Source: Dehalococcoidales bacterium
GTDB taxonomy: Bacteria; Chloroflexota; Dehalococcoidia; Dehalococcoidales; RBG-16-60-22
Length of the DNA stretch: 33,641 nucleotides
Direction of reading: 5' to 3'
NCBI GenBank assembly: GCA_028714335.1
Contig: JAQTMM010000014.1
Coordinates: 1 to 33,641 of the forward strand
Below are positions 1,869-32,946 of the stretch, piece by piece. The first letter of the stretch is position 1, and each line of letters opens with the position of its first letter. The notes under the pieces were generated by a model. The model was not told the DNA's origin. It did not search any database and saw only the letters and a program-made list of their open reading frames with translations. Position numbers and translations under genes: made by a program.

Positions 1869-1958
1869 GCCTTCCGCACCTTAAAAACTGAATATCAACG
1901 AGCCAAAGTGTCAAAACAATTCATCTGTAAAAATGTATCTAGTATCAAACCTGAAGCA

Positions 1959-4937
<2,979 letters not shown>

Positions 4938-4982
4938 GTTTCAGAATTGATATTAGACAAACACTTTAGACTCGTTTAACCT

Positions 4983-17044: not shown

Positions 17045-18007
17045 ATGAAAGACTTTAAAGATAAGGTGGCATTTATTACCGGCGGTGCTTCCGGGGCAGG
17101 GTTGGGACAGGCTAAAGTATTTTCCGAGGCGGGCTGTAAAATCGTTATCGCCGATATCCGCCAGGACCATTTAGATGAAGCCAAAGCGTATTTTAAAGGC
17201 AAGAACGCGCGGGTTCATTTTATCAAGCTGGATATAACCGATAGAAAAGCCTACACCAAAGCCGCCGATGAGGTAGAAGAGGTGTTCGGTGGGCCGCCCC
17301 AGTTGTTGTTCAATACGGCGGGAGTGAACGCCTTCGGCCCGGCGGAAGCCTCTACGTTTGAAGATTATGACTTTGTGGTGGGGATTTGCCTGGGCGGAGT
17401 CATCAACGGCATGGTGACCTTTGTGCCGCGGATGATTAAGTCTGGCCGCCCCGGCCATATCGCCACCGTAGCCTCGATGGGCGGTTTGATGGGTGCTTCA
17501 AGGTGCGCGCCGTATTCCGCCGCCAAAGCCGGCGTTATCAACCTCATGGAGAGTTATTACACGGCGCTTAAGCCGTATAACATCGGGGTGTCCTGTTTGT
17601 GTCCGGCGGGCATTAAGACAAACATCGGCGAATCGTCATATATCCGCCCCAAGCATCTGGAGAATACCGGTTACAACACCAACGAAAAAACCGTCGCTTT
17701 CATGGCGCATCATTATTCCTTTGGCATTGATCCGGTGGAACTGGCGCAGATATTCAAGAAGGGGATAGAGAACGACGTCCTTTACGTTTTGCCTTTCCCC
17801 GAGCCGGATAACGTGATGAAGAGGCTTATTGGCCGGATGGTCAACTATACCACCCCCGAAGGTATGAAACGCCAGGCGGAGTTGGATAAACAGATGATGG
17901 AAGAAAGAAAAAATAATCCCAACCCGATGATGGAAGGCGCCGAGGAAGCCGGCTGGGGTATGGCTAAAGAGGGTTTAAACTGGGTTAAAGACGCTAGGAA
18001 CAAGTAA
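17045..18007 (+). CDS. Short-chain dehydrogenase/reductase (classical SDR)
   Basis: An NAD(P)-dependent alcohol or ketone oxidoreductase of 320 residues. The cofactor loop is TGGASGAGLG near residues 14-23. The acidic residue in VIADIRQ after the second strand suggests a preference for NAD. The NTAG stretch follows, then the Ser of ASMGG, and the catalytic pair is Tyr157/Lys161 in YSAAK. The C-terminal ~60 residues, rich in Met, Glu and Asn (KQMMEERKNNPNPMM), extend beyond a normal ~260-residue SDR and may carry a dimer or partner contact. The ribosome-binding site is GGGAGGGAG before the ATG, and a TATAAT box lies at 17008-17013. The UGSC-like selenoprotein gene begins 17 bases downstream, so the two very probably form an operon. 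Confidence 0.9.
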   Translation: MKDFKDKVAFITGGASGAGLGQAKVFSEAGCKIVIADIRQDHLDEAKAYFKGKNARVHFIKLDITDRKAYTKAADEVEEVFGGPPQLLFNTAGVNAFGPAEASTFEDYDFVVGICLGGVINGMVTFVPRMIKSGRPGHIATVASMGGLMGASRCAPYSAAKAGVINLMESYYTALKPYNIGVSCLCPAGIKTNIGESSYIRPKHLENTGYNTNEKTVAFMAHHYSFGIDPVELAQIFKKGIENDVLYVLPFPEPDNVMKRLIGRMVNYTTPEGMKRQAELDKQMMEERKNNPNPMMEGAEEAGWGMAKEGLNWVKDARNK

Positions 18008-18024
18008 CTTTTTGGAGGCATACC

Positions 18025-19857
18025 ATGACAATCCAACTGCTGGATAATGTAATAAGCCCGCTAGTGGGCGTACAGATAATGACCGGCGGGCCGCCGCCTT
18101 TTATGGGCGCGAATCCGTCGGCAACGGGCAAGCGCCCGAAGGGTCAAGGTGGGCCGCCCCCAATGGCGCCGCCTCCCCCGATTCCTGACACCTTTGCCAA
18201 ACGGCTGGATACGCTGGAAAACAAGACCGTTTATCTGGTGGATACCGGTTTTGGCGGTAGTTACCAGTTCATGGTGCAGCTCCAGAAATGGTTTAAAGAA
18301 AATATGCCCTCCGTCACCACCATCCGCAAACGTAAGCCGGGCAATGTCTTTATGGACGACAACGACGAACTCTGGGAAGAAGTTAAGGAAAAGGGGAACG
18401 CTGTTGTCCTTGGGGTGGCGGGTTGACCGGGCTGTGTCGGCGGCGTTGCCGCTGGTAGCCGAAAACTGGAAGGGAAGTACGGAATCCCGGTTGCTCCGGT
18501 TTCTACGTATCAATTCAAAAGCGTGGCTGATGACAACCTTAAAGCCACCAATCAAACCATACCGTTTATTTACACGCCGCACCCGGTCATTGGGATGTCG
18601 CCGGAAGCGCTGGATAGATACATTGTCGGCAGTGACCCGGATACCCGCAAACCCATTATCGAAGAGATAATTGATGTGCTAACCAAGCCGGTTAAGGCAA
18701 CCAAAGCTACGGCAGCACCGCAGGCAATAAAACCTATTGCCATTGACAGGTTCTTGAAGGCGGATACTGAAGAAAAACTTCAGCAGCTGTTTTACGACAA
18801 GGGTTGGACGGACGGGCTGCCTATAATCCTCCCCACCGAGGAAAGAGTCAAGAAAATGCTCGCTGGGACGTGCGCGGCGCCGGACGATATCGCTGCCGAG
18901 TCGTTTAAGTTTGATACTCGGGAGATGGTCAAATACACCGTCGAGAACATAGCGGTGATTGCCGTAATGGCCGGGGCAAAACCGGAATACTTCCCGGTGA
19001 TTCTGGCCATCGCCTCGTCAAGGCAGTCATCGTTGATGCCGTCCACCACCCCGTTTGAAGCGATGCTTCTAGTCAATGGGCCTATCGCTAAAGAAATCGG
19101 GATGAACAGCGGCATCGGGGCTTTCAGCGCGGTGAACCAGGCGAACTCGGTGCTGGGCAGGGCGTGGACGCTCATGAGCATTGCGCACGGCTTTGCCATC
19201 CCCCGCCAGACGCTCTGGAGCTCGCAGGGGAACAACCATACGTATAATAACATGTGCTGCGCGGAGAATGAGGAGCGGAGCGTTTGGGAACCGTTCCACG
19301 TAACCAAGGGCTTCCGGGCGGAGGAGAGCGTTATCAGCATCTTTAGAGGGTGGACGTATGTGAACAGCACCGGCGGGGCGTCCCACCGGTCTTTAACGGA
19401 AGAACTGAATATCGAGCTTTCCGTCATGCCGCCGCTGAATTCATCGGCGACGATTATCATGGACCCGATGGTCGCCAGGGAGCTTAAAGAAGACCAAGGA
19501 TTCAAGACGAAGCTGGATTTTTGCAAGCACCTATCCGAGAACATCAAGATGAAGAACGGGCAGTTCTGGAAGACCGACTACATAGACATGCTGGTGGCGT
19601 CGGAGGCGTATAAAGGCGTGGAGCCTTATGCCTCGTGGAAAAAGCTGCCCGACGACGCTTTAATCGCGCCCTATCACAAGCCGGAGAACATCAACATCAT
19701 TGTGGTAGGCGGCGAGACCAGCCCGCTTTGGAAGGCGTCCGACTTCGGGTATTCCGGGAGTTTCCCGGTGGATAAGTGGCGGGCGGCTCCGGCAGCGGTG
19801 GAATGCAAGGACGGTGAATGCGGATTGCCGGACGCTCCGGGCCAGTACGACGACTAG
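18025..19857 (+). CDS. UGSC-family-like selenoprotein, UGA at 18424-18426 read as selenocysteine
   Basis: The frame from the ATG at 18025 runs for 610 residues with a single interruption, a TGA at codon 134, and continues open in the same frame to 19857. Around it the product reads VVLGVAG-U-PGCVGG, giving a redox Sec-Pro-Gly-Cys motif (134-137). The flanking pattern (LENKTVYLVDTG before; KYGIPVAPVSTYQF after) resembles the N-terminal domain of UGSC (seleno)proteins known from marine metagenomes, where the motif is UGSC. Residues 15-55 are Gly/Pro-rich. Residues ~250-610 form a second domain with a long conserved-looking core (MAGAKPEYFPVILAIASS). A clear ribosome-binding site (TTGGAGG) precedes 18025. 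None precedes the GTG at 18523, where a separate downstream gene would have to begin. The enzymatic role is unknown; a redox function is inferred. A nonsense mutation is the alternative. Confidence 0.8.
18424..18460 (+). promoter_or_regulatory. UGA codon and SECIS-like hairpin
   Basis: After the UGA (18424-18426), CGGCGGC (18438-18444) pairs with GCCGCTG (18448-18454) through seven pairs, one of them G-U, with loop GTT starting 19 bases past the UGA. GGCT (18430-18433) and AGCC (18457-18460) extend the stem below an internal loop. Position and size fit bacterial SelB-binding elements, which sit just downstream of the UGA inside the coding region. Confidence 0.6.
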
Positions 19858-19890: not shown

Positions 19891-19914
19891 GTATTAGTAA
19901 TGAGGAACATTGCC

Positions 19915-20523
19915 ATGAAAATACTGGGTATATCTTTTAGTCCGAGGAAGAATGGGAACACTGTGGCGATGCTTAAGTTAGCATTGGGCGCGGCGGCAAA
20001 GGCGGGGGCGGAGGTCGAGCTTTACAGCGTGGCGGGCAAGCGCCTTGAGCCGTGCCGCGGGTGCTGGTCTTGCCGGGAAACCGGTAAATGCGTCATCACG
20101 GACGACGCCGTACCGGAACTATTGGAGAAGATGTGCGCCGCCGACGGCATTATCTTTGGCACGCCGATATATTTTTGGGGCATGACGGCGCAGGCTAAGG
20201 CGGTTATCGACCGCACGATATCTTTAAATAAACCACCCCACACCCTGAACAACAAGGTCTGCGGCGCGGTGGCGTCCTGCGGGTCTTTAGGGATGGTGGA
20301 CGCGCTTAAGGACTTGAGTTATTACATGGTACAGCGGCGGATGCTGCCCGCCAACCAGGTCAGCGCCTACCTGATGGAGCCAACCGACTTGAAGAAGATG
20401 CCCAAGTGCCGTGAGGCTTTAAGGCTGCTGGGACAGCAGATGGCCGCGCTGGTAAAGATGAAGTTCAAGTACCCGGATAAGTTCTATAAAGGTCCCGGGT
20501 CTTTTGGAACGCACACCAAATAA
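19915..20523 (+). CDS. Iron-sulfur flavoprotein (Isf / NADPH-dependent FMN reductase family)
   Basis: An electron-transfer flavoprotein of 202 residues with a flavodoxin-like fold. The FMN phosphate loop is SFSPRKNGNT (8-17). The compact cysteine motif CX2CX2CX5C (Cys47, 50, 53, 59 in EPCRGCWSCRETGKC) is the [4Fe-4S] signature of Isf proteins from anaerobes. GTPIYFWGMTAQAKAVIDR is the usual FMN and dimer-contact segment. Isf-type proteins take electrons from ferredoxin and pass them to acceptors, often for oxidative-stress defence or reductive metabolism. The ATG at 19915 is preferred over that at 19900 because GAGG lies nine bases upstream and the protein then begins at the family's conserved MKILGISFSP. 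It lies 57 bases after the selenoprotein gene and could provide its electrons. Confidence 0.9.
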   Translation: MKILGISFSPRKNGNTVAMLKLALGAAAKAGAEVELYSVAGKRLEPCRGCWSCRETGKCVITDDAVPELLEKMCAADGIIFGTPIYFWGMTAQAKAVIDRTISLNKPPHTLNNKVCGAVASCGSLGMVDALKDLSYYMVQRRMLPANQVSAYLMEPTDLKKMPKCREALRLLGQQMAALVKMKFKYPDKFYKGPGSFGTHTK

Positions 20524-20676: not shown

Positions 20677-20706
20677 TTAGAGAAAGAAGAGCGGGAGGTG
20701 CGCAAA

Positions 20707-21198
20707 ATGAATACGCTGGTTATTTACGACTCACTCTACGGCAACACGGAAAAAGTCGCCAATGCAATGGCGGAGGCGCTGGGTAAGGAAGCTAAAGCGG
20801 TCAAGGTGGGGCAGGTTAAAGCCGGCGGTCTCAAGGACTACGCCTACGTACTCATAGGGTCGCCGACGCAGGGCGGGCGGCCGACCAAAGCCATGCAGTC
20901 CTTCCTGGCGGGCCTGACCGAAGACGATGTACTCGGCAAGCGCTTCGCCGCTTTTGATACGCGCGCCCAGGCATTTATCGTCAAGCTCTTCGGCTGGGCG
21001 GCTCCCAAGATTGAAAAAGCGTTAAAGAGCAAGCGCGCCAACTGCACAGCACAGCCGCAGGGATTCTTCGTGGAAGGCACCAAGGGGCCTTTGGCGGAGG
21101 GCGAACTGAAACGGGCGGGGACGTGGGCTAAAGCGATTATCGCGGGCCTGCCGACCAACTTAATGCCCGGCGAGTTCAACGTCAAGACGAAAGAATAA
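20707..21198 (+). CDS. Flavodoxin-like protein
   Basis: A small FMN electron carrier of 163 residues. It begins MNTLVIYDSLYGNTEKVA, matching the flavodoxin phosphate-binding signature. The isoalloxazine-contact loop is GSPTQGGRPTKAMQSFL, and a second loop lies in FDTRAQ. The ATG at 20707 follows GGGAGG by eight bases; the in-frame GTG at 20698 would overlap that site. An intergenic stretch of 183 bases and a probable promoter separate it from the Isf gene, so it is at least partly independent. It may serve the redox enzymes on either side as a carrier. Proteins of this size also act as quinone reductases or domains of A-type flavoproteins, but no such extra domain is present. Confidence 0.88.
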   Translation: MNTLVIYDSLYGNTEKVANAMAEALGKEAKAVKVGQVKAGGLKDYAYVLIGSPTQGGRPTKAMQSFLAGLTEDDVLGKRFAAFDTRAQAFIVKLFGWAAPKIEKALKSKRANCTAQPQGFFVEGTKGPLAEGELKRAGTWAKAIIAGLPTNLMPGEFNVKTKE

Positions 21199-25128: not shown

Positions 25129-26013
25129 TTATTTATTAAACTTTAAATTACTAACAGAGTTCAGCCAGTCTTTGGGGCCCACCGGGCAATAAGCCAGGCA
25201 CCGGCCGCAATGATAGGCGGGGACGCCCCCGATAACCTCGCCGCGCTGGCGGGGGTCCAACTGCTCCTCGGCGGCTTTCATGACATCCATGGAGGTGGGA
25301 TTCTCGGGGAAAACGATGTCCTTAAGCCCGAGGGCTTTGGTGGTCAAGCCGCGGGTGGCAATTTCACAACTGGGGAAATCCACCCAGCCGTATTTAAATT
25401 CACGGTCGCCCATCTTTACCGATTTGTAACGCGTGGGGCTGATAGCCTTGGTGGGGCAAACGTTTATACAGATGCCGCATTTAACCGGGTCGCACATGGC
25501 AATCGGGTCAAGCATGGGGTCGGGCTCGATATCCGCTCGGGTGATAACGCTGACGAGCCTGATACGCGGGCCGTAGTCCGGCGTCATGACGATGCTCAAC
25601 CAGCCAAAGGTGCCGATGCCCGCGGCGACGGCGGCGTGGCGGTTGGAAAATGGGGCGCCGGCGCTGCCGGGGCCAGAGGGAACGGGTGTGGACATATAGC
25701 CTTTGCGCTCCAGGAAGCGCGCCATCTCGTAGGCGGCAAATTTTAGATAGTAATTGGGGAAAAGAGAATAGGCGTAAGAACCGTAGATACACTGGAGGTG
25801 GCGCAGTCCGTCCTCGTAAGCGCGGAAGACGGTCTGCACGGCGCCGAGGCTTAGCTTAACCGCCATGACAACGACGGATTTTGCGCCGGGTAGCAGGTCG
25901 GTGGGGCGGTTGCCCTGCGGCGCGCCGGCAAGCCTTTCAACGTTGGCGATGCCGCAGTAGTCCATATCCAGTTTCTCTAAAGCGTACTTCTTAATTTCAT
26001 CCTTAAGCTTCAA
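25129..26013 (-). CDS. Double-cluster [4Fe-4S] protein related to epoxyqueuosine reductase (QueG-like)
   Basis: A soluble 294-residue iron-sulfur protein. The N-terminal half resembles the cobalamin-binding half of QueG and reductive dehalogenases (GIGTFGWLSIVMTPDYGPRIRL, where QueG has AGLGWxGKNxLLITPxxGS). The C-terminal half carries two clusters: Cys174/179/182/186 in CDPVKCGICINVCP, and Cys216 with Cys269/272/276 in HCGRCLAYCP. It lacks a twin-arginine signal, so it is not a typical respiratory dehalogenase. Role in queuosine synthesis is doubtful, because the family has many uncharacterised anaerobic branches and the neighbours are catabolic. The TTG at 26013 is chosen because GCAGGAGG lies eight bases before it; an upstream TTG would place this site inside the gene. 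It is the first gene of the operon. Confidence 0.78.
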   Translation of the reverse strand: MKLKDEIKKYALEKLDMDYCGIANVERLAGAPQGNRPTDLLPGAKSVVVMAVKLSLGAVQTVFRAYEDGLRHLQCIYGSYAYSLFPNYYLKFAAYEMARFLERKGYMSTPVPSGPGSAGAPFSNRHAAVAAGIGTFGWLSIVMTPDYGPRIRLVSVITRADIEPDPMLDPIAMCDPVKCGICINVCPTKAISPTRYKSVKMGDREFKYGWVDFPSCEIATRGLTTKALGLKDIVFPENPTSMDVMKAAEEQLDPRQRGEVIGGVPAYHCGRCLAYCPVGPKDWLNSVSNLKFNK

Positions 26014-26066
26014 GACGAATACCTCCTGCAAGAAAGGGAAATTACCAAAAACCTTTTCTAAAATGC

Positions 26067-26120: not shown

Positions 26121-26183
26121 ATGTTTGATTTAGCTTTGAGACGATTGCCCGCAGGGGTGCGATATGCTATATTTATTGCATGA
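26121..26183 (+). CDS. 20-residue leader peptide of the arginine operon
   Basis: ATG at 26121 follows a perfect AAGGAGG (26109-26115) by five bases. The product, MFDLALRRLPAGVRYAIFIA, contains three Arg (codons AGA CGA at 7-8 and CGA at 14). Its TGA (26181-26183) overlaps the argJ ATG (26180-26182) as ATGA. argJ itself has no ribosome-binding site, so argJ translation probably depends on ribosomes that finish this peptide. Tandem Arg codons in a leader before arginine biosynthesis genes suggest that charged tRNA-Arg or arginine controls the operon, either by ribosome stalling or by coupling efficiency. The alternative is that it is only a coupling device without sensing. It is too short to compare with known families. 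Confidence 0.65.
   Translation: MFDLALRRLPAGVRYAIFIA
26145..26173 (+). promoter_or_regulatory. Possible internal promoter giving a leaderless argJ message
   Basis: TTGCCC (26145-26150), 17-nt spacer and TATATT (26168-26173) preceded by TG at the extended -10 position. The predicted start coincides with the A of the argJ ATG at 26180. It lies inside the leader-peptide gene, so arg expression could bypass the leader. Confidence 0.4.
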
Positions 26184-27385
26184 GTACGGAATCGGATTAT
26201 GTACCCTCCGGCGGGGTAACTTCGCCCGGAGGATTCATGGCTGGCGCGACCAGCGCCGGTATAAAGTACCCAATCGGACAGCGCTACGACCTCGGTATTC
26301 TACTTTCCACCAAATCCTGCGTGACCGCCGGCGCATTCACGACCAATAAAGTTAAGGCGGCTCCGGTGTTGTTGTGCAAGGAGCGGCTAAAGCGGGGCGG
26401 GATACGCGCCATCGTGATGAACAGCGGGTGCGCCAACGCGTGCACCGGCCAACAGGGGATGGCAGACGCCCAGGAAATGACCGAACTGGCGGCAAAGAAC
26501 ATCGGGATTAAGAAAGAAGAGGTGCTGGTGGCCAGCACGGGGGTCATCGGGACAATGCTGCCGATGGAACGCATCCGGGCGGCGCTGCCGAAAGTCATGT
26601 TCTCGCCGGGGGGAGGGCACGACCTCGCCCGGGCGATAATGACCACGGACAGGGTGCCTAAAGAAGTGGCGGTCAAGACCGACGATTTCACCATCGGGGG
26701 GATACTTAAGGGGTCGGGTATGCTGCACCCCGATATGGCGACGCTATTATGCTTTTTAACCACCGATGCGCCCGTCGAACCCAATTTCTTAAGACAGGCG
26801 TTAAAAGAGTCGGCGGCGATTTCTTTTAACATGCTGACCGTTGACGGCGACAGCAGCACCAACGATTCGTTGATAATTATAGCGAACGGCGTGACGGGCG
26901 GCGAGACCATCCGGGTGGGGAGCCATAAAGCGAGGGCATTCCAACAGGCGCTGGACAAGGTGTGCATTTACCTGGCGAAGGAGGCGGCGCGCGACGGCGA
27001 GGGGGCGACTAAGCTCATCGAGGTAAGGGTATCCGGGGCGGTAACTCTGCACGAGGCGCAGATAGCGGCGAGAACGATTGCAGGCTCGTCACTGGTGAAG
27101 ACGGCAGTATACGGCGCGGACCCTAACTGGGGGCGGATACTGGCGGCCGCAGGACGGAGCGGGGCTAACATGGAGGAGGGGAAGGCAGAGCTGCACCTGG
27201 GGGAAACAAGCGTGGTTAAAGACGGCACACCGGTGAAATTCGATAAGGAAAGCGTTGTTAATTACTTAAAGGGCAACGAGATAAATATAAGGCTTAACCT
27301 GCACCTGGGGAGGGGAGAGGCTACAGCGTGGGGCTGTGACATGACCGAGGAATATGTGAAGATTAACGCCGAGTATACGACGTAG
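26180..27385 (+). CDS. argJ: Bifunctional ornithine acetyltransferase / N-acetylglutamate synthase
   Basis: Transfers the acetyl group from N-acetylornithine to glutamate, and may also acetylate glutamate with acetyl-CoA, making the cyclic arginine route. The 401 residues show ArgJ landmarks: FTTNKVKAAPV near the start, NSGCANACTG with the conserved Asn and Gly/Thr residues, and the autocleavage site KGSGMLHPDMATLL, where self-processing between Ala187 and Thr188 frees the catalytic Thr. DPNWGRIL is near the C-terminal end. It heads argJ-argB-argD-X-argG-argH. argC, needed between ArgB and ArgD, is not in the window. The start overlaps the leader-peptide stop, with no ribosome-binding site of its own. 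Confidence 0.96.
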   Translation: MSTESDYVPSGGVTSPGGFMAGATSAGIKYPIGQRYDLGILLSTKSCVTAGAFTTNKVKAAPVLLCKERLKRGGIRAIVMNSGCANACTGQQGMADAQEMTELAAKNIGIKKEEVLVASTGVIGTMLPMERIRAALPKVMFSPGGGHDLARAIMTTDRVPKEVAVKTDDFTIGGILKGSGMLHPDMATLLCFLTTDAPVEPNFLRQALKESAAISFNMLTVDGDSSTNDSLIIIANGVTGGETIRVGSHKARAFQQALDKVCIYLAKEAARDGEGATKLIEVRVSGAVTLHEAQIAARTIAGSSLVKTAVYGADPNWGRILAAAGRSGANMEEGKAELHLGETSVVKDGTPVKFDKESVVNYLKGNEINIRLNLHLGRGEATAWGCDMTEEYVKINAEYTT

Positions 27386-27396
27386 GTTATTTAAAG

Positions 27397-28179
27397 ATGA
27401 AAGATATTACAGTAATTAAAATAGGCGGTTCCACTTTCAATAGCGGAGATACCACTATACAGGACGTCGTGGAGTTGCAGAAAAAGAAGCACGCCATAGT
27501 AGTGGTGCACGGTGGTGGCAATACGGCCACGGAATGGCTGAAGCAGTACGGCATCCAAACAAAGTTCGTGCGGGGGGAGCGCGCCACCGATATACGGTCG
27601 CTCGCGGTGGTGACGGCAGTGCTGGCGGGGCTGGTGAATAAAGAGCTGTCGGCGGCGATAAACCTTTACGGCGGCAGTGCGGTGGGGATAAGCGGCGTGG
27701 ATGGCGCGATGATTGAAAGCAAAATGAAAGATAAAGAACTGGGTTATGTGGGGTCGGTGGAACAGGTCAATGTAAAGGTGCTGGAGACGCTGTTGAAAGA
27801 CGGCTTTATACCGGTCGTCTCCCCAATAAGCCTTTATTCGCTGGAGAGAATGGGGGAAGAGCCGGGCATTATAAACGTCAACGGCGACCCGATTGCCGGG
27901 GAAATCGCCGCGGCGCTGAAAGCGAAACGTCTCATTTATTTAACAGATACCGACGGCATCTGGGATAAAAACGGCGCGACCTTATCATATATAAGCCAGG
28001 TAGAAGTGGCGCCGCTAATAACATCCGGGGTAATCGAAGGGGGGATGATACCCAAAGTGGAAGCCTGCATCAAGGCTTTAAAAGAGGGGACTCTAGCCCG
28101 TATAATAGATGGAAGAAAACCACACGCGCTGATGGCTGAATTTGTAAAGCCTGAAGGCGGTACGACGATAGGAAAGTAA
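27397..28179 (+). CDS. argB: N-acetylglutamate kinase
   Basis: Phosphorylates N-acetylglutamate, step two of ornithine synthesis. The 260-residue amino-acid-kinase fold begins directly with the ATP loop KIGGS (8-12), followed by VVHGGG and, late in the protein, LTDTDGIWD. INVNGDPIAGEIA and GGMIPKVEA are typical NAGK segments. Arginine-inhibited kinases carry an extra N-terminal helix of roughly 20-25 residues; it is absent here, so the enzyme is probably insensitive to arginine, and control may rest on the leader peptide instead. This is inference from family knowledge. It lies 11 bases after argJ and ends one base before the argD start, as in a tightly coupled operon. Confidence 0.95.
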   Translation: MKDITVIKIGGSTFNSGDTTIQDVVELQKKKHAIVVVHGGGNTATEWLKQYGIQTKFVRGERATDIRSLAVVTAVLAGLVNKELSAAINLYGGSAVGISGVDGAMIESKMKDKELGYVGSVEQVNVKVLETLLKDGFIPVVSPISLYSLERMGEEPGIINVNGDPIAGEIAAALKAKRLIYLTDTDGIWDKNGATLSYISQVEVAPLITSGVIEGGMIPKVEACIKALKEGTLARIIDGRKPHALMAEFVKPEGGTTIGK

Positions 28180-28180
28180 G

Positions 28181-29374
28181 ATGATTGATTGGAAAGAAAT
28201 AGAAAAGAAATATTACATGCGCACATTTGACAAGGTACGCCTGCCGGTGGTGCTGGTCAGGGGTAAAGGCGCCAGGGTCTGGGACGACCGGGGCAAGGAG
28301 TACCTGGATTTTGTCGGGGGGTGGGCGGTAAACAGCCTGGGTCACGCGCATCCGGTAGTTGCCGGGGCAGTAGCCGCACAGGCTAAAAAGCTGATACATA
28401 CCTCCAACCAGTTTTATACCATACCGCAATTACAGCTGGCCGAACTGCTGGTTAAGAACAGCTGCTTTGACCGGGTATTCTTTGCCAATAGCGGATTGGA
28501 AGCCAACGAAGGCGCGGTCAAGCTGGCGCGGCGCTACGGCAAACTAAAGCTTAATGGAGCTTATGAAGTCATTACCGCGCTGGGGTCGTTCCACGGACGC
28601 TCGCTGGCAATGACGGCGGCGACGGGGCAGGAATCGTTCCACACGCCCTACACGCCGATGCCGGAAGGCTTTATCAATGTCAAATACAATGATATTGAAG
28701 CGATACAAGCCGCCACCAACGAAAAAACGGTAGCGGTGATGCTGGAGTTGATAGAAGCGGAAACCGGTGTCATCGTCCCTAATGAGGACTACATAAGACA
28801 GGTGCGCCACTGGTGCAACGAGAGGGGCATTTTGCTGATTCTTGACGAAATACAGACGGGCATCGGCAGACTCGGCGCACTGTTCGGCTATCAGCTTTAT
28901 GGCATCGAGCCGGATATCATCACGCTGGCCAAAGGGATGGCGGGTGGTGTGCCAATCGGGGCAATACTGGCTAAAGAAAGCTGCTCGGTATTCGTCTCCG
29001 GCGACCACGGCGGTACCTTCGGGGGCAATCCGCTGGTCTGCGCGACGGGCTATGCCACGATGAAATATATTATTGAAAGAAACATCGCGGGCAATGCCAA
29101 CACGGTGGGTCGGTACCTGATGGATAGACTAAATCAATTAAAGAGTAAATATCCTGTCATCATCGAAGTGCGGGGGCGGGGCTTACTGGTGGCGGTGGAG
29201 TTCACTGTTGAGATAGGGCAGGAAGTAATGATGAAGTGCATGGATATGGGACTGCTCGTCAACCGGGTAAAGCCCAACGCCATCCGCCTGATGCCGCCGC
29301 TGATTATCAACCGGCAAGACGTGGATAGAGCGGTGCGTATACTGGATAGAGTATTGGCAGGAATTGCGAGATAA
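28181..29374 (+). CDS. argD: Acetylornithine aminotransferase
   Basis: PLP-dependent transaminase that converts N-acetylglutamate semialdehyde to N-acetylornithine; it may also act on succinyldiaminopimelate for lysine synthesis. The 397 residues show subgroup III aminotransferase landmarks: DFVGGWAVNSLGH, NSGLEANEGAVKLARRYG, LDEIQTGIGRLG and the PLP lysine Lys251 in ITLAKGMAGGVPIGA. GDHGGTFGGNPL follows. The length is normal. The ATG at 28181 is one base after the argB stop, with GGAAAG upstream within argB as the likely ribosome-binding site. Another omega-aminotransferase is possible in principle, but the operon context makes ArgD by far the best assignment. Confidence 0.95.
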   Translation: MIDWKEIEKKYYMRTFDKVRLPVVLVRGKGARVWDDRGKEYLDFVGGWAVNSLGHAHPVVAGAVAAQAKKLIHTSNQFYTIPQLQLAELLVKNSCFDRVFFANSGLEANEGAVKLARRYGKLKLNGAYEVITALGSFHGRSLAMTAATGQESFHTPYTPMPEGFINVKYNDIEAIQAATNEKTVAVMLELIEAETGVIVPNEDYIRQVRHWCNERGILLILDEIQTGIGRLGALFGYQLYGIEPDIITLAKGMAGGVPIGAILAKESCSVFVSGDHGGTFGGNPLVCATGYATMKYIIERNIAGNANTVGRYLMDRLNQLKSKYPVIIEVRGRGLLVAVEFTVEIGQEVMMKCMDMGLLVNRVKPNAIRLMPPLIINRQDVDRAVRILDRVLAGIAR

Positions 29375-29376
29375 TC

Positions 29377-30312
29377 TTGAAGAAATTATCTATCAACTTT
29401 AAAAGCCTAAAAAAGGTAAACAGGCTGGGGGTACCGGGGGTTATCGCGGCGGTGGTGCTGATATTCTTTTTGTTTATAGTGGTTATCTACAATACAGGAG
29501 TAGGGCTGGCCAACGAAGGAATACAGGAACCGTCGTTTAACGGCGTGGATATTTCATTAGCGCCGGCCGGCGTAATTACCGACGCCGAGCAAATGGCGGC
29601 GGACGTTGTTGGGACGGGCGCGGCGGATTATCAGAAGATAGTTGACGAACTCGTCGGGTCTTACCTGCTGGCAAAGGACTCGGATATAGTCATCTTCTTT
29701 AATTCGGGCGGGATGGGGTGGAATTACGTCTATCAGACGCCGGGCTGGGAAAGTATTATCAACGGTATGATTGAGGAGCTCAACGACATGGGGTACCGTC
29801 CGTTGTTCTTAAATTACAGCCGCACCAACCGCGACTTCTGGAGCAATATTAAAGAGGTCATCGAAGCGGCGACGCGGTACACCCAAAAGGTCATCGCCAT
29901 GGAAAAACACGTGGAATTCCTCAACGACCATGTGCCGGGACTGCAGTTATTAATAGCGGGAGAAAGCACGGGCAGCGTCATAACCGAGGAAGCGATGAAG
30001 TATTTCCGCGACCACGCCAATGTTTATTCCATCCAGACGGGGTGTCCGTTCTGGTATAAAACTACAGACCAGCCGCGCACTTTAAGGATAACTAATAACG
30101 GCTACGGCATTGACGCCTTCAGCTACGGTAACCTCCCGGCGATGGTCTGGTGCACGGCTAAAGGGTGGTTCGGGCTGGAATCGGCGGAGGAGAACGCCGG
30201 CAATGTGTTAAAATCATTCAGGGCGCCGGGACACGACTACACGTGGGAATACGACGCTATTAAAGGCGTCATAACCGGATTTTTTGCAGAAAACTTCCCG
30301 AGGAAGAATTAA
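29377..30312 (+). CDS. Membrane-anchored protein of unknown function with a GESTG motif, inside the arg operon
   Basis: I do not recognise this 311-residue protein. The N-terminus is basic (MKKLSINFKSLKKVNR), followed by one transmembrane helix (about 20-40) and a long outward-facing domain, so it is probably tethered to the outer face of the cytoplasmic membrane. The domain has an alpha/beta-hydrolase flavour: strand DIVIFFNSGG, then GWNYVYQTPGWESIINGMIEELNDMGY and strand PLFLNYS, then LLIAGESTGS with Ser197 in a GxSxG-type elbow. His286 (APGHDYTW) is a possible base. It begins with TTG at 29377, two bases after the argD stop, and ends 12 bases before argG, so it is co-transcribed with arginine genes although it has no known place in the pathway. 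Confidence 0.75.
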   Translation: MKKLSINFKSLKKVNRLGVPGVIAAVVLIFFLFIVVIYNTGVGLANEGIQEPSFNGVDISLAPAGVITDAEQMAADVVGTGAADYQKIVDELVGSYLLAKDSDIVIFFNSGGMGWNYVYQTPGWESIINGMIEELNDMGYRPLFLNYSRTNRDFWSNIKEVIEAATRYTQKVIAMEKHVEFLNDHVPGLQLLIAGESTGSVITEEAMKYFRDHANVYSIQTGCPFWYKTTDQPRTLRITNNGYGIDAFSYGNLPAMVWCTAKGWFGLESAEENAGNVLKSFRAPGHDYTWEYDAIKGVITGFFAENFPRKN

Positions 30313-30324
30313 GGGAGTATTATC

Positions 30325-31578
30325 GTGAAAGACAAAGTAGTACTGGCTTATAGCGGCGGGGTAGATACCTCGGTCGCTATTAAGTGGATGCAGGAGCAAT
30401 ATAAAGTGGACGTCATCGCGGTGACGATAGACGTCGGTAACGAAAAGGACTTTTCTGTCATACGCGAAAAGGCTCTAAAATTCGGAGCGATTAAGGCGCT
30501 GGTGATTGACGGCAAGGAAGACCTGGTCAAATACTTCCTCTTCCCGGCGCTGCAGGCCAACGCGCTTTACGAGGGGCAGTATCCACTCGCCACGGCGCTG
30601 TCGCGTCCACTCATGGCTAAACTGCTGGTGGATGTGGCGCAGGAAGAAGGGGCGGCGGCGATAGCCCACGGCTGCACCGGCAAGGGCAACGACCAGGTGC
30701 GGTTCGAGGTGGGGATTAACGCTTTAGCCCCCGACATTAAAATACTCGCTCCAGCGCGTGAGTGGGACATGAACCGCGAGCAGACGATACAGTACGCGCA
30801 AAAGCACGGCATACCCATCCCGGTCACCAAGAAAAGCCCGTACTCTATTGACGAGTGCATGTGGGGGCGGTCTATAGAGTGCGGCGCGCTGGAAAATCCC
30901 TGGACGGAGCCGCCCGATGATGTTTACATCTGGACAAGGGACCCGGATAAAGCTCCGGCTAAAGCCCAGTATATTGAAATTGGTTTTAAGAAGGGCGTAC
31001 CGGTGACGCTCAACGGCAAAGAGATTGACGGGATAACTTTAATAAATACCCTGAACGAGATTGCCGGCAAGCACGGCATCGGGAGGATAGACCATATCGA
31101 GAACCGGGTGGTGGGGATAAAGTCGCGGGAGATTTACGAAGCCCCGGCGGCGGTGACGCTGATTCAGGCGCACCAGGCGCTGGAAGCCTTAACGCTGTCC
31201 AAGGACCAACTGCGCTTTAAGCAGAAGGTGTCCGTGGAGATATCCGACCTGATTTATAACGGGTTGTGGTTCAGCCAGTTCAACCGCGACCTTTCGGCTT
31301 ATATTTCAAGTTCGCAGCAATACGTCACGGGAACGATTAGGCTAAAGCTCTATAAAGGGCAGGCGACGGTGGTGGGACGCAAATCCCCGTGGTCTCTTTA
31401 CAATTTGAGTTTAGCAACTTATGATAAAGGAGATAAATTCAACCGCCAGGCGGCGGAGGGCTTTATCTATCTGTGGGGCCTGCCGGTCAAGACGCAGGCG
31501 CAGATACAGCTCCTGGGGGACAAAGAGGGTCCGTTAAGCATCGTGGGAAAAACGAAAGGGAAAAAGAAGAAGAAATAA
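30325..31578 (+). CDS. argG: Argininosuccinate synthase (GTG start)
   Basis: Joins citrulline and aspartate using ATP, the penultimate step of arginine synthesis. The 417 residues begin with the N-type ATP loop AYSGGVDTS (8-16). Further landmarks are AHGCTGKGNDQVRFE, PAREWDMNREQ, SIDECMWGRSIECG and IGRIDHIENRVVGIKSREIYE, all typical of ArgG. The C-terminal synthetase domain is complete and ends in a polylysine tail (KGKKKKK). GGGAG, nine bases before the GTG, supports the start. argH begins immediately after the stop. The gene is part of the single rightward arginine operon. Confidence 0.97.
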   Translation: MKDKVVLAYSGGVDTSVAIKWMQEQYKVDVIAVTIDVGNEKDFSVIREKALKFGAIKALVIDGKEDLVKYFLFPALQANALYEGQYPLATALSRPLMAKLLVDVAQEEGAAAIAHGCTGKGNDQVRFEVGINALAPDIKILAPAREWDMNREQTIQYAQKHGIPIPVTKKSPYSIDECMWGRSIECGALENPWTEPPDDVYIWTRDPDKAPAKAQYIEIGFKKGVPVTLNGKEIDGITLINTLNEIAGKHGIGRIDHIENRVVGIKSREIYEAPAAVTLIQAHQALEALTLSKDQLRFKQKVSVEISDLIYNGLWFSQFNRDLSAYISSSQQYVTGTIRLKLYKGQATVVGRKSPWSLYNLSLATYDKGDKFNRQAAEGFIYLWGLPVKTQAQIQLLGDKEGPLSIVGKTKGKKKKK

Positions 31579-32946
31579 ATGAGTAACATACGCGGCCGTT
31601 TTTCTAAACCGGCCGATAAGTTAGCCGGGCAATACACCACGTCCCTCCCCGTTGACCAACGACTCTACAAACAGGACATCGCCGGCAGCATCGCCCACGC
31701 CAGGATGCTCGCCAAACAGCGCATTATCACCCAAACTGACGCCAGGAAAATCGTGGATGGGCTGTTGGCTATTCAAAAAGAAATCGAGCTGGGTAAATTC
31801 CAGTTCAAGCCGGAGATGGAAGATATTCACATGGCGGTGGAGTCGCGTTTGATAGAGAAAATAGGTGAGGTGGGGCGGAAATTGCACACGGCGCGCTCCC
31901 GCAACGACCAGATAGCGCTAGATATACGACTCTTCACCAAAGAGGCAATTGCCGAAACGCAAAAGGGCATCCGCGCACTGCAAAAAGCGATGCTGGAAAT
32001 GGCGGAAAAGAACAGAGCCGTCGTTATCCCCGGCTATACGCATGTACAGGCGGCGCAGCCGGTACTGCTGGCGCACCATCTGCTGGCGTACTTTGATATG
32101 CTGCAGCGCGATTTCGAACGGTTCAACGACTCGCTAAAGCGGGTGGATGTGATGCCGTTGGGAAGCGGGGCTTTGGCCGGGGTGACGTACAAAATTGACC
32201 GGGAGTTCGTGGCGAAAGCGCTGGGGTTCAGCAAAGTCAGCAAGAACAGCATGGACGCCGTGAGCGACCGCGACTTTATTATAGAATACGAAGCCAACGC
32301 GGCTATCACGATGATGCACTTGTCGCGGCTGGCTGAAGAGCTGGTGCTATGGTTGTCGGTGGAGTTTGGATATATAGAAATTGACGACGCCTACGCCACC
32401 GGCAGCAGCATCATGCCCCAGAAGAAGAACCCTGATGTCGCCGAACTTGCCCGCGGTAAAACAGGGCGGGTTTACGGCAACCTCATGGCTTTATTAACGA
32501 TAATGAAGGGACTGCCGCTGGCATATAACAGCGACATGCAGGAAGATAAACCGGGCTACTTCGATACGGTTGATACACTGCAAACGACTTTAACGATATT
32601 TGCGGGCATGATTAAGTCCGTCAAGGTAAATAAAGCCAACATTCAGCGGGCATTGGGGCGGGGCTATATACTGGCGACGGACGTGGCGGACTACCTTGTG
32701 AAAAAGGGCGCCGCCTTCCGCACTGCCCATGAAATCGTCGGAAAATTGGTGAATTACGCTGTATCCAAGGGCAAAACGCTGGCAGAACTTGACATAAAGG
32801 AATACCAGCAGTTTTCACCGCTTTTTAAGGCGGACGTCCTCAAAATTACGATTGAGTCAGCTTTAGCCGCCAGAGATATCACCGGCGGCACGGCGCCGAA
32901 CCAGGTAGCCAGGGCACTAGTTGCGGCACGTAAAATTGTAGTATAA
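31579..32946 (+). CDS. argH: Argininosuccinate lyase
   Basis: Splits argininosuccinate to arginine and fumarate, the last step of the pathway. The 455 residues show the fumarase/ASL superfamily regions: HTARSRNDQIALD (the ASL-specific stretch), GYTHVQAAQPV, and the flexible catalytic loop GSSIMPQKKNPD (275-286), in which Ser277 matches the reactive serine. The tail KADVLKITIESALAARDITGG is usual. The ATG follows the argG TAA with no gap, so translation is coupled. A TATAAT overlaps the argH stop (32942-32947) and may contribute to transcription of the ABC gene that follows. Confidence 0.97.
   Translation: MSNIRGRFSKPADKLAGQYTTSLPVDQRLYKQDIAGSIAHARMLAKQRIITQTDARKIVDGLLAIQKEIELGKFQFKPEMEDIHMAVESRLIEKIGEVGRKLHTARSRNDQIALDIRLFTKEAIAETQKGIRALQKAMLEMAEKNRAVVIPGYTHVQAAQPVLLAHHLLAYFDMLQRDFERFNDSLKRVDVMPLGSGALAGVTYKIDREFVAKALGFSKVSKNSMDAVSDRDFIIEYEANAAITMMHLSRLAEELVLWLSVEFGYIEIDDAYATGSSIMPQKKNPDVAELARGKTGRVYGNLMALLTIMKGLPLAYNSDMQEDKPGYFDTVDTLQTTLTIFAGMIKSVKVNKANIQRALGRGYILATDVADYLVKKGAAFRTAHEIVGKLVNYAVSKGKTLAELDIKEYQQFSPLFKADVLKITIESALAARDITGGTAPNQVARALVAARKIVV

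Follow-up and report, generated by a model that had tools for sequence, protein, structure and literature searches.

The analysed window is a 33,641-nt stretch of DNA from a Dehalococcoidales bacterium, whose genome is represented by a 1.74-Mb draft (89% complete). As shown in Table 1, it carries, between genes for a short-chain dehydrogenase (SDR) and two putative flavin-linked proteins, a long reading frame interrupted by one TGA. When this triplet is read through, the frame encodes 610 residues and ends with TAG at position 19855; the sole TGA is codon 134, and the residues around it read GVAGUPGC, i.e. Sec-Pro-Gly-Cys. An earlier note on this DNA, which proposed an unannotated selenoprotein, described the single frame, the position of the TGA and the motif correctly, its count of 611 codons including the stop. 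Elsewhere in the window we observed (i) a complete 23S rRNA gene (1958-4939), the ORFs listed there being probably spurious, (ii) a gene for an iron-sulfur protein (25129-26031), weakly similar to reductive dehalogenases (TIGR02486, 45 bits, cut-off 160) and to QueG, and (iii) a row of apparent arginine biosynthesis genes (26180-32946), judged by their translations.

Table 1. Features of the putative selenoprotein locus (positions within the window).
Feature	Position	Strand	Remarks
Short-chain dehydrogenase (SDR) gene, directly upstream	17045..18007	+	Kept in other genomes of the clade, 69-83% identity
Gap of 17 bases between the SDR and selenoprotein genes	18008..18024	+	Contains the Shine-Dalgarno sequence TTGGAGG
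Putative selenoprotein gene: UGSC domain and conserved C-terminal domain, 610 aa with one Sec	18025..19857	+	
UGSC domain (PF24696), predicted Rossmann-like fold, very probably homologous to the GrdB Sec domain	18190..18615	+	44.9 bits, cut-off 25
UGA, almost certainly a selenocysteine codon, residue 134, motif UPGC	18424..18426	+	TGA in 11/11 aligned UPGC-clade members; Sec or Cys in 151/158 family members
SECIS-like hairpin, apical loop GUU at 18445-18447	about 18430..18460	+	
C-terminal domain, about 350 aa	18736..19797	+	Separate adjacent gene in other lineages
NADPH-dependent FMN reductase-like gene, downstream	19900..20523	+	Neighbour also kept in relative G001
Flavodoxin gene, downstream	20698..21198	+	Neighbour also kept in relative G001

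The frame is one gene, not two. Its ATG lies 17 bases beyond the SDR stop codon and is preceded by a good Shine-Dalgarno sequence, while the first internal start past the TGA is a GTG at 18523, for which a ribosome-binding site was sought and none was found, in line with what the earlier note had stated for the downstream half. From base composition, the probability that the 477 codons 3' of the TGA would stay open is about 6e-10. Standard gene calling breaks the frame at the TGA, as would be expected if the UGA were a real stop separating two proteins, a mark of a pseudogene or a sequencing error; the orphan GTG already speaks against this explanation, which we regard as highly improbable in view of the comparative data given below. 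The same behaviour of gene callers means that misannotation conceals proteins of this kind.

Close relatives of the gene product (58-74% identity) were sought in 200 related genomes, and a codon alignment was built from the gene and ten full-length relatives, derived from eight other genomes. All ten carry TGA at the Sec codon; thus, every close homologue examined has TGA at the site where residues other than Cys or Sec would have told against the proposal, and the independent genomes exclude a sequencing error. Synonymous sites are saturated among the aligned members (median pS 0.72-0.78), and pN/pS amounts to 0.22 upstream of the TGA and 0.32 downstream, with 0.23 for the C-terminal domain. 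Retention of the TGA despite such saturation, with purifying selection on both sides, is not explained by a stop codon, a pseudogene or a sequencing error.

Profile searches identified the complete Sec-decoding machinery in the source genome: selA (549.6 bits), selB (340.3 bits), selD (388.1 bits) and tRNA-Sec (72 bits; anticodon TCA, UCA in RNA). The selA, selB and tRNA-Sec genes share one contig, and selD, which has its own in-frame UGA within AGUACK, is placed on another. The earlier note had considered the proposal untenable if selB and tRNA-Sec were absent; the presence of both, together with selA and selD, makes it very probable that UGA is decoded as selenocysteine, and is difficult to reconcile with a real stop. 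The genome also contains two more genes with a UGSC domain, each with one in-frame TGA at the equivalent site (motifs UGSC and UDGC).

The GC-rich hairpin previously noted at the expected SelB distance was recovered downstream of the UGA. It has an 8-bp stem and a 3-nt apical loop beginning 19 nt past the UGA, and its energy is -18.1 to -19.7 kcal/mol, varying with the stretch folded. Taken by itself, this hairpin is not much more stable than expected (z about -1.7), and it is the comparative evidence that carries the case. A correctly placed hairpin with G within the first two loop bases was detected in 59 of 71 family members vs 148 of 710 control stretches (21%). Over all members, the hairpins are more stable than synonymous recodings (mean z -0.92 vs -0.03; Mann-Whitney p 7e-10), and for the UPGC clade the mean z is -1.74. 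Not all subfamilies show this effect, and for the UGAC, USGA and UGGC groups stability is a weak test when used on its own. When a seven-pair stem was aligned over ten UPGC and two USTC sequences, 84.5% of the cells were paired and covariation scored 0.305 (0.177 in shuffles), the stem of the gene studied here being offset by one base from this register.

We extended the analysis to 158 UGSC domains, obtained from the survey of related genomes and from a scan of 84,980 species genomes. The Sec column is occupied by Sec in 138 of them, by Cys in 13 and by other residues in seven, i.e. 96% have Sec or Cys and about 4% have neither. The Cys form occurs, for instance, in the cultured Microbacterium album. 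Invariance of Cys or Sec at codon 134 had been suggested as a check, and Sec/Cys exchange at this very column was indeed observed in the wider family. Neither selA nor selB exceeded the cut-off in seven of eight Cys-bearing genomes tested, the exception being a Bradyrhizobiaceae MAG with selA, selB and an additional Sec-containing paralogue (L171). Overall, selA was over the cut-off in 14 of 16 Sec-bearing vs one of eight Cys-bearing genomes (Fisher p 7e-4), with the same pattern for selB; the two Sec-bearing genomes without selA are drafts (80% and 55% complete). The occurrence of Cys in genomes devoid of the Sec machinery also argues against a genuine stop. Taken with the data on the reading frame, its conservation and the decoding genes, sequence comparison indicates that the UGA at codon 134 almost certainly encodes selenocysteine and that the product is a selenoprotein.

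Leu, Met, Asn, Ala or Thr was found at the Sec column in L187, L158, L170 and L068:4379-6043. The genomes of L187 and L158, the two tested, have full selA and selB, and such members therefore look like repurposed paralogues. In the USGA and UPGA branches (L047, L072, L073, L079-L083, L195-L197, L216), as well as in the UGTF forms L076 and L092, Sec is kept and the second Cys is lost. In a redox UxxC motif, it is unusual to find Sec unaccompanied by a resolving Cys. Across the family the second Cys is kept in 88% of members, compared with 96% for Sec or Cys at the Sec position, and this difference suggests direct chemistry at selenium.

The match of the N-terminal half to PF24696 confirms the placement of the protein in the UGSC family. 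The cut-off of the NF041046 equivalog (125 bits) was not reached by this protein (42.5 bits), nor by its UGSC and UDGC paralogues in the source genome (84.3 and 50.7 bits, respectively). The UPGC form was also identified in two Acidobacteriota genomes, and, judged by the sequences compared, it represents a subfamily of its own, with members in Dehalococcoidia and Acidobacteriota. The earlier suggestion of a new subfamily thus stands for the UPGC form and does not stand for the fused architecture: fusions of the UGSC and C-terminal domains are common, and one, UGSC/Unknown_1, was reported by Zhang and Gladyshev in 2008 (PMC2398784). Our C-terminal domain is probably their Unknown_1. A 5-Mb genome of the same class (G181) yielded 213 first-look candidates for relatives of the protein, six of which were scored, which suggests a very large paralogue expansion in that genome.

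An AlphaFold2 model of the protein, computed with 63 relatives in the input, has a pLDDT of 85.7 and a pTM of 0.87. In this model strand and helix alternate through five units in the UGSC domain (residues 63-225), Sec following strand 3. The structures most similar to this domain are CheY-, FtsZ- and SDR-like, the best scores being those of a designed protein (Z 11.0) and of a component of the methyl-CoM reductase activation complex (Z 10.1), and no thioredoxin appears among the best 50 matches. The fold is thus predicted to be Rossmann-like, and probably not thioredoxin-like, as was judged likely by Zhang and Gladyshev (PMC2398784) and as maintained in a 2026 review, which keeps UGSC among the Trx-like-fold families and describes it as largely uncharacterised (PMC13188914). 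On the view that both publications take of the UGSC family, the selenoprotein would belong with the thioredoxin-like oxidoreductases, acting generally on thiols and disulfides or in the manner of a peroxidase, and the UxxC motif speaks for this as well. We consider this unlikely, since the predicted strand-helix alternation and the structural matches point elsewhere, the USGA, UPGA and UGTF branches dispense with the second Cys, and the UGSC profile matches GrdB. For the same reasons (a GrdB-like domain and relatives lacking the second cysteine), the description of Sec-Pro-Gly-Cys as a redox motif in the earlier note is probably too narrow.

GrdB is the selenium-carrying protein B of glycine/sarcosine/betaine reductase, and its Pfam family is GRDB (PF07355). 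Comparison of the UGSC and GRDB profiles using hhalign gave probabilities of 95-97%, among them 96.2% (E 2.5e-9) with the Sec columns aligned. This last value was 92% with the Cys columns masked and 97.3% with 159 sequences, and the UGSC profile aligned with true GrdB and with short GrdB-like proteins when each was taken on its own; controls (a reversed profile, SDR, TrxB and MFS) gave 0.1-5.8%. The aligned block comprises only about 70 residues, and hmmscan of the protein listed PF24696 and not PF07355. These profile comparisons indicate that the UGSC domain is very probably a distant homologue of the Sec domain of GrdB, a relationship that is new here. Sequence searches of the PDB revealed no relative of the whole protein, of the C-terminal domain or of GrdB, and no grdA, grdE or pyruvoyl subunit gene is apparent within the window. 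A short GrdB-like (PF07355) protein without UGA is encoded elsewhere in the source genome (G000:C19:1521-1922).

The C-terminal domain was assigned to no Pfam or NCBIfam family. It is modelled with confidence (pLDDT 89), contains the conserved motifs DGLP, PT, VMAG..P, IGR, AENEE..W and GG, and in other lineages has its own gene (about 350 aa) beside a separate UGSC gene. Two candidate relatives, class I fumarase (Foldseek, best E 6.5e-3) and iminodisuccinate epimerase (VIA-align, best Z 4.8), were rejected as too weak. Its length, strong conservation and existence as a separate gene might mean that this domain is the catalytic one and that the UGSC domain merely supplies electrons; moreover, UGSC domains without Sec or Cys are still fused to it (L068, L158, L170). 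Such a division of labour seems rather improbable: the retention of Sec or Cys in nearly all UGSC domains fits direct chemistry there, and the structure search provided no enzyme family to which the C-terminal domain could be anchored.

The sole widely recurring neighbour in the UPGC clade is the upstream SDR gene. The FMN reductase-like and flavodoxin genes recur together downstream in one relative, and genes for glycolysis, transketolase and histidine kinase are also found near orthologues. In nine loci a thioredoxin reductase-type gene was detected near the fusion on the same strand, in most cases adjacent to it. These loci belong to Proteobacteria, mainly with USTC/CSTC forms, and not to the UPGC subfamily; their TrxB-like products score 226-282 bits with TIGR01292, below the 343-bit cut-off, and most have a CASC or CATC motif.

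In clostridia, GrdB is driven by NADPH via thioredoxin reductase and thioredoxin (PMC3091704), and cleavage of the C-F bond in fluoroacetate has been linked to a GrdB relative (PMC10838667). Together with the GrdB profile match and the thioredoxin reductase neighbours, these reports favour a GrdB-like reductase. A Sec-decoded protein acting as a GrdB-like, Sec-dependent reductase is the best explanation overall, and one that we hold to be reasonably probable; for the function as such, which we infer from sequence relationships, we would put the chances at even or slightly better. By the comparative evidence, SelB and tRNA-Sec decode the UGA with the aid of the downstream hairpin. Sec134 would occupy the turn that follows strand 3 in the Rossmann-like domain. 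As in GrdB, the selenolate may then act, by attack or by reduction, on a small organic substrate held between the UGSC and C-terminal domains. Oxidation would leave an Se-S pair (Sec134-Cys137), which a thiol or an NADPH-linked partner would restore to the reduced state. This partner could be thioredoxin reductase where its gene is adjacent, and here perhaps the flavodoxin or FMN reductase-like neighbours, while the upstream SDR probably acts in the same pathway.

More tentatively, the UGSC fusions as a whole might be GrdB-like reductases dependent on Sec and so form a large class that has gone unrecognised, with the C-terminal domain taking the place of GrdE as the substrate-binding partner and the paralogues with other UxxC motifs serving different small organic substrates. 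If this is true, selenium-dependent reductive cleavage extends well beyond amino acids, across Dehalococcoidia, Acidobacteriota and Proteobacteria. For the family as such, the GrdB link, the thioredoxin reductase neighbour and the two-gene split form provide a concrete and testable enzymatic hypothesis.

With the UGSC family (PF24696, NF041046) the protein shares the domain, the Sec column and the UxxC motif; it is set apart by having UPGC instead of UGSC and by its additional C-terminal domain. In the UGSC/Unknown_1 fusion (PMC2398784), a UGSC domain is likewise joined to a second conserved uncharacterised domain. Compared with GrdB, the protein has no N-terminal GrdB region and has a C-terminal domain of a different kind. 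In GrdB/PrdB (PF07355), the Sec motif UGTCT of GrdB resembles UGSCT of UGSC, and the motif and the block following it align; an association with thioredoxin reductase is found on both sides, for GrdB by biochemistry and for some UGSC subfamilies by gene neighbourhood.
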